A DNA stretch of 64,000 nucleotides from Leptospirillum ferrooxidans C2-3 (GTDB lineage Bacteria; Nitrospirota; Leptospirillia; Leptospirillales; Leptospirillaceae). This document shows positions 4,149 to 4,375 of this stretch, in pieces. Position 1 is the stretch's first letter, and each line of letters starts with the position of its first letter. The DNA lies in the NCBI RefSeq assembly GCF_000284315.1, contig NC_017094.1:2480001-2544000 (forward strand). Direction: 5' to 3'. Below the pieces are notes generated by a model. That model was given only the letters and a program-made list of their open reading frames with translations. It was not told the DNA's origin and made no database searches. The position numbers and the translations under genes were made by a program.

Positions 4149-4164
4149 TGGCACGCTCATTGCT
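4149..4164 (+). promoter_or_regulatory. Sigma-54 (-24/-12) promoter of the nif operon
   Basis: TGGCACG-CTCA-TTGCT matches the sigma-54 consensus TGGCACG-N4-TTGCW at every defined base. GG is at 4150-4151 and GC at 4162-4163. Transcription should start near 4174-4176, giving a leader of about 200 nt before nifH. Confidence 0.93.
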
Positions 4165-4187
4165 AGTAATATCACGCCAGCCATTTT

Positions 4188-4215
4188 CCGAAAGATTCGA
4201 GGCAGAGTCTTTCGG
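4188..4215 (+). promoter_or_regulatory. Hexaloop hairpin in the nifH leader
   Basis: Stem of 11 bp with one T-G wobble (4188-4198 with 4205-4215) closing the hexanucleotide loop GAGGCA (4199-4204). ANTAR proteins bind paired stems with six-base loops, with A at loop position 1 and G at position 4 as I recall the consensus. Position 4 matches here; position 1 does not. Confidence 0.55.
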
Positions 4216-4290
4216 GGAAGGAGCTGAAAGAAATGGATTGAAGGAACAGAAAACTAAACGGGGTCGGTACAATATGCCGACCAGGCGCTG

Positions 4291-4325
4291 AAGCCGAATG
4301 AAGATATCTTCATTCGGCTTTTTTC
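4291..4325 (+). terminator. Intrinsic terminator between the nif promoter and nifH
   Basis: AAGCCGAATGAAGAT (4291-4305) and ATCTTCATTCGGCTT (4306-4320) are perfect complements, and the T run spans 4319-4324. This is a canonical rho-independent terminator placed inside the leader, 51 bases before the nifH start codon. Confidence 0.85.
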
Positions 4326-4375
4326 ATTTCTGCCCTTCTCCCGAACGAGGAGGCAGACAACCAGGAGGAAACATT

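Follow-up and report, generated by a model that had tools for sequence, protein, structure and literature searches.

The locus analysed here raises the question of whether nitrogenase synthesis in Leptospirillum ferrooxidans C2-3 is decided only at the sigma-54 promoter of nifH, or once more on the nascent RNA before nifH is reached. The window, by which is meant the whole stretch of 64,000 nucleotides analysed (2480001-2544000 of a 2.56 Mb genome in a single contig), holds nifH and a co-directional nif run, followed by the gene of an ANTAR protein, referred to as nif-ANTAR (Table 1). A sequence-only reading had claimed a sigma-54 site, a stem with a six-base loop, a second hairpin and a 30-nt palindrome with a T run ahead of nifH, and direct reading of the letters found each of them in its place. 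That the leader is a real, conserved attenuator between the sigma-54 promoter and nifH is well supported, and there is a good probability that it is controlled by an ANTAR-type protein, read-through occurring when nif-ANTAR binds both hexaloops.

Table 1. Positions of the leader elements and nif genes in the window
Feature	Position	Strand	Remarks
Sigma-54 (-24/-12) promoter of nifH	4149-4164	+	TGGCACGCTCATTGCT, near-perfect
P1, long 5' hairpin	4182-4221	+	Apical hexaloop GAGGCA at 4199-4204, C:G closing pair
P2, hairpin directly 5' of the second hexaloop	4262-4282	+	GGTCGGTACAATATGCCGACC
P3, candidate antiterminator, three-pair hexaloop hairpin	4284-4295	+	GGC-GCTGAA-GCC
Intrinsic terminator upstream of nifH	4291-4324	+	Palindrome and T run
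Hairpin between terminator and ribosome-binding site	4330-4356	+	Covarying pairs
nifH	4376-5251	+	Fer4_NifH, 440 bits
Rest of the co-directional nif run	5361-22161	+	nifB, nifS, LRV-FeS, nifZ, NifU-like, ferredoxin III, nifW, two P-II genes
Terminator-like hairpin 3' of the P-II genes and 5' of the ANTAR gene	22177-22213	+	15 pairs, from the terminator scan
Sigma-54-like promoter of the ANTAR gene	22283-22298	+	AGGCATGGAACTTGCG
nif-ANTAR, proposed antiterminator	22335-22955	+	206 aa; pseudo-receiver, coiled coil, ANTAR

The core of P1 at 4188-4215 (CCGAAAGATTC-GAGGCA-GAGTCTTTCGG) has 11 pairs, including one T:G, around its six-base loop, and the stem was found to be longer than this core, extending to the limits given in Table 1. 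The terminator is built on a perfect 30-nt palindrome (AAGCCGAATGAAGATATCTTCATTCGGCTT, 4291-4320) with a T run that reaches 4324 and, with 14 pairs of which 6 are G:C, is among the strongest detected in the terminator scan of 3500-23400. The GCC at 4293-4295 is common to the 3' arm of P3 and the 5' arm of the terminator, so that the two structures are mutually exclusive. The leader as a whole has a folding energy of -79.3 kcal/mol, compared with -52.9 +/- 4.8 for shuffled sequences (z -5.5), none of the 200 shuffles being as good. Scans of the window and of the leader against Rfam returned nothing relevant, no family being matched at the gathering score.

The conservation of this arrangement was assessed in the class, where nifH is carried by 14 of the 21 genomes. 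The 13 nifH loci with enough upstream DNA each have the -24/-12 site 216-227 nt upstream of the ATG, and the leader alignment, running from promoter to nifH, comprised 12 complete leaders and a partial one, all from one family and several from fragmented metagenome assemblies. In the complete leaders the order promoter-P1-P2-P3-terminator is maintained without exception (12/12), and RNAalifold, when left unguided, recovered P1 with its six-base loop, the terminator and the hairpin before the ribosome-binding site. In the alignment of the relatives 90.9% of the cells are paired, against 40-56% with the partners slid and 82% in shuffles, while 51 cells are compensatory against 23 +/- 4 in shuffles. 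Changes on both sides were seen in 17 pairs. P1 accounts for 10 of these, out of its 15 consensus pairs, and 86.6% of its cells are paired; for the terminator, 98% of the cells are paired across 13 leaders. Comparison with relatives, which the sequence-only reading had proposed as a check, is in favour of both the P1 stem and the terminator. Leader-peptide attenuation was also considered and rejected, since the tiny ATG reading frames of some leaders are absent from others.

The hairpin at 4330-4356, in which both sides changed in 6 of 8 pairs, possibly contributes to the stability of the mRNA 5' end. Being an additional covarying structure just before the ribosome-binding site, it speaks for an explanation in which the terminator would stop stray transcription from upstream and the hairpins would protect the nif mRNA. 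Nevertheless, a terminator placed after the sigma-54 promoter, as here, would block nifH as well if it were an insulator; moreover, neither the conserved GGC-GCYGAA-GCC overlap nor the matching loops would be needed, which leaves this explanation extremely improbable.

P3 reads GGC-GCYGAA-GCC in 13/13 leaders; its stem is invariant in the family and therefore yields no covariation test, so that the case for P3 relies on this invariance and on its position over the terminator arm. P2 is present in all 13 leaders as a stem of 5-8 pairs ending 0-2 nt 5' of P3 (shuffle p 0-0.036 each), and in 8 of the 13 P3 forms with a probability of 0.82-1.0 in the pre-terminator transcript. The earlier proposal that the hexaloop at 4284-4295 excludes the terminator stem was confirmed in the shared GCC arm, the same in 13/13 leaders, and this hexaloop is the likely switch of the attenuator. 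When the 21 genomes of the class were searched with a model of P2, P3 and the terminator, strong matches were obtained solely at nifH loci. The weak matches elsewhere scored below the nifH loci, and the one examined among them (L165 in G004) was discarded as an ordinary terminator after a gene.

Antitermination by ANTAR proteins through two-hexaloop antiterminators is known from EutV on eut, NasR on nasF and AmiR on amiE (PMC3369931, PMC8934654, PMC7496416), G4 and the closing C:G pair being hallmarks of the targets (PMC8934654, PMC7496416). The nifH leader resembles these systems in that it has a pair of hexaloops, each with G4 and a closing C:G and the second lying over an intrinsic terminator, and in that the target belongs to nitrogen metabolism. 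In fact, P1 and P3 provide two hexaloop hairpins in 12/12 complete leaders, and the C:G closing pair and G4 are invariant in both loops. The first loop occurs as GAGGCA, GAGGAA (the form in L016), GACGAA, GATGCA or GCTGAA, always keeping G1, G4 and A6, and the second as GCTGAA or GCCGAA; both can therefore be written C-GNNGNA-G, the closing C:G, G1, G4 and A6 being common to all complete leaders. In one leader (L024) the two loops are identical, GCTGAA in both. Two loops of this type arise in 0.03% of shuffles. Since the hexaloops share this form, one protein probably reads both, and matching loops are the trace expected of a dimer reading two equivalent loops.

A different use of the same transcript was also considered, in which the main product of the promoter would be an independent small RNA, about 150 nt long, stopping at the terminator and acting elsewhere, and nifH would be expressed through constant partial read-through. 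The structure is highly conserved from the start-site region to the terminator, and the leader would give a discrete RNA. Nevertheless, a P1 stem whose sequence varies while positions of its apical loop stay fixed is more easily understood as a protein site than as a region pairing with targets, and the overlap of hexaloop and terminator would be left unexplained; such a small RNA is thus considered very improbable.

The ANTAR-type attenuator, which we prefer, is not of the textbook kind as far as its sequence can be read, having G1 in place of A1 and distant hairpins. An A at loop position 1 is needed by EutV and NasR (PMC3369931) and forms the ANTAR consensus, whereas G occupies this position in both loops of every leader, and the canonical C:G-closed A1/G4 hexaloop was absent from all leaders searched. 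The linker between P1 and P3 is about 60-80 nt (63-78 nt when counted from immediately beyond the first loop up to GGC, the L016 value excluded), longer than in the described targets, where it is 5-12 nt in eut (PMC3369931) and 2-25 nt in actinobacteria (PMC8164766); furthermore, extending the linker by 20 nt abolished antitermination by EutV (PMC8934654). The EutV, NasR and AmiR targets also differ from the Leptospirillum leader in that the latter has A6 fixed, a sigma-54 promoter, an extra hairpin within the linker, and a long stem as P1 instead of a mini-hairpin.

As to the protein that would read these loops, the ANTAR domain of nif-ANTAR (PF03861) scored 63.6 bits, the curated cut-off being 27.3, and the top Foldseek matches of its structure model, of moderate confidence, were RNA-bound EutV, EutV, Rv1626 and AmiR. 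It shares with EutV and AmiR the combination of a receiver-like domain, a coiled coil and ANTAR. In the alignment, R142, K149, E160, Y164, R168, M172 and R175 of EutV are matched in nif-ANTAR, which thus has equivalents of the residues gripping the flipped-out G4 in EutV (R142, K149, E160, Y164, M172), while N173 is replaced by K and R177 by S. Of the 14 genomes with nifH, 13 carry the gene, and the 7 genomes lacking nifH all lack the gene too; the one exception (G006) also has no close match to the nifV of this cluster, so this stretch is probably unassembled. The linkage of nif-ANTAR to the nif genes partly accounts for this co-occurrence. Its relatives carry the labels Leptospirillum or Nitrospirae, and among 295 Nitrospirota genomes no close relatives were found outside the family, the matches there being distant ANTARs alone.

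The claim that the ANTAR protein at 22335 controls read-through can be retained in part: nif-ANTAR is the best candidate reader, given its co-occurrence with nifH, its own sigma-54 promoter and the EutV residues, whereas the G1 loops and the 60-80 nt linker tell against it. These two departures from known ANTAR targets (PMC3369931), together with the existence of a second ANTAR protein in the genome (L047), are also what would favour a true attenuator worked by another factor, whether some other RNA-binding protein, this second ANTAR or a ligand that the RNA itself reads. However, the second ANTAR occurs also in relatives without nifH, while nif-ANTAR tracks nifH, and two small loops that match, the second of them over a terminator, are better explained by a dimer reading loops than by a ligand pocket. 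Control by such another factor is accordingly regarded as improbable.

How nif-ANTAR would be switched can be approached through its receiver, whose active site is incomplete: aspartate 52 is kept, Q stands at the usual lysine and the usual threonine is replaced. With one aspartate kept and Q for lysine, the domain resembles the pseudo-receiver of AmiR, with which nif-ANTAR shares the order of degenerate receiver, coiled coil and ANTAR. AmiR has AmiC as its partner. No AmiC-like gene was recognised beside nif-ANTAR, whose neighbours are the P-II genes and a Rop-like protein, and neither was a kinase gene recognised there in a non-exhaustive look at the neighbourhood. The Q for lysine and the lack of a recognised adjacent kinase make it probable that the receiver is not phosphorylated, and the signal would then more likely come from a protein partner or from four invariant cysteines. 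These are C90, C100, C119 and C122, all the cysteines of nif-ANTAR, which are kept without change in 13 homologs, the most distant at 51% identity; the structure model is of low confidence at residues 98-122. Their invariance in the sequence suggests metal or redox sensing. The more specific proposal that nif-ANTAR is a redox or oxygen sensor with an iron-sulphur cluster, which opens the gate only at low oxygen and reads the G1/G4/A6 code, is rather doubtful.

Taken together, the following sequence of events is proposed. Sigma-54 polymerase would initiate near 4175 and, by default, the strong terminator would fold and transcription would end about 50 nt before nifH. An active nif-ANTAR dimer would grip both C-GNNGNA-G hexaloops; P3, held as GGC-GCUGAA-GCC, would keep GCC from the terminator 5' arm and so allow read-through into nifH and the nif genes. 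The ANTAR gene itself appears to have its own sigma-54 promoter, a match to which lies 51-55 nt before the ATG in 13/13 homologous ANTAR loci, and a short leader with no such terminator. The circuit would therefore be a feed-forward AND gate, in which the antiterminator is itself a product of sigma-54 activation and nifH depends on the two together. If this is right, nitrogenase synthesis in these aerobic bacteria of acid mines is subject to two decisions, one at the sigma-54 promoter and the other at an RNA gate just ahead of nifH. It would also put to a concrete test whether loops without A1 and hairpins that are far apart can serve ANTAR proteins, widening the rule used in target searches, and through the cysteines of nif-ANTAR a connection with oxygen or redox state becomes directly testable.

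The ANTAR control of nitrogenase is already known in principle. In 2010, Ueki and Lovley reportedly described GnfR of Geobacter sulfurreducens as an ANTAR regulator of nif genes, tested in that organism, and it is said to work with the sensor kinase GnfK. Their paper is in the reference list of PMC8164766, both gnfK and gnfR are named in PMC7962754, and an ANTAR regulon for nitrogenase has been predicted in Pelobacter carbinolicus (PMC3369931). In view of these two precedents, the suggestion that the leader adds a generally new RNA layer to the control of nitrogen fixation was too strong. The likeness to Pelobacter and to Geobacter GnfK/GnfR consists in the control of nitrogen-fixation genes by ANTAR, predicted in the present case; unlike GnfR, nif-ANTAR has no kinase gene recognised beside it and its receiver looks degenerate. 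New features of the present system are a loop code with G1, a linker that is both long and structured, conservation throughout the family, and invariant cysteines in a pseudo-receiver; none of the papers searched links Leptospirillum, ANTAR and nif.

A profile scan with nif-ANTAR also reached the Clostridia, where nifH lies within 5 kb at 3 of 5 matches. In the order of Anaerobacterium a close relative of the Clostridial ANTAR (over 100 bits) was found in 15 of 58 genomes, at 16 places. All 11 nifH leaders that could be read near these genes (L074, L075, L076, L140-L143, L147, L148, L150 and L151), at loci with the ANTAR gene upstream of nifH, have an [AG]GC-C...G...-GC[CT] hairpin over a terminator, that is [AG]GC-CNNGNN-GC[CT], with a seven-base loop in one leader, and in some of them the stem GGC/GCC becomes AGC/GCT, both members of the outer pair being replaced so that G:C gives way to A:T. 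As in Leptospirillum, a three-pair hexaloop with G4 overlaps the terminator; the Clostridial loci differ in having C1 in the second loop and a short linker, and no sigma-54 site was noticed in them, TTGACA-type promoters being visible in several. Their ANTAR proteins, unlike nif-ANTAR, retain the usual lysine in the receiver, and the cysteines are not conserved at the same places. Although such details as C1 and the short linker differ, a layout apparently common to two phyla supports the ANTAR reading of the leader, and the leaders of both groups together suggest that nitrogenase is gated by ANTAR proteins more widely than current annotation shows.

With regard to the genes beyond the gate, nifDKEN would follow nifH and the two P-II genes would be NifI1 and NifI2, as assigned from sequence and gene order, and the run at 5361-22161 may form one transcript, probably ended by the hairpin at 22177-22213. 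A second run starts at 22335 with the ANTAR gene, followed by the Rop-like protein, a nifV-like homocitrate synthase, a ThiF protein and a solute-binding protein. Two further observations concern other proteins of this genome. The second ANTAR protein (G000:C1:1492847-1493029) reads as GAF-GAF-ANTAR, and a SIR2-like domain protein (50 bits) is encoded at 19684-20625, inside the nif run, and is found in the same place in relatives.
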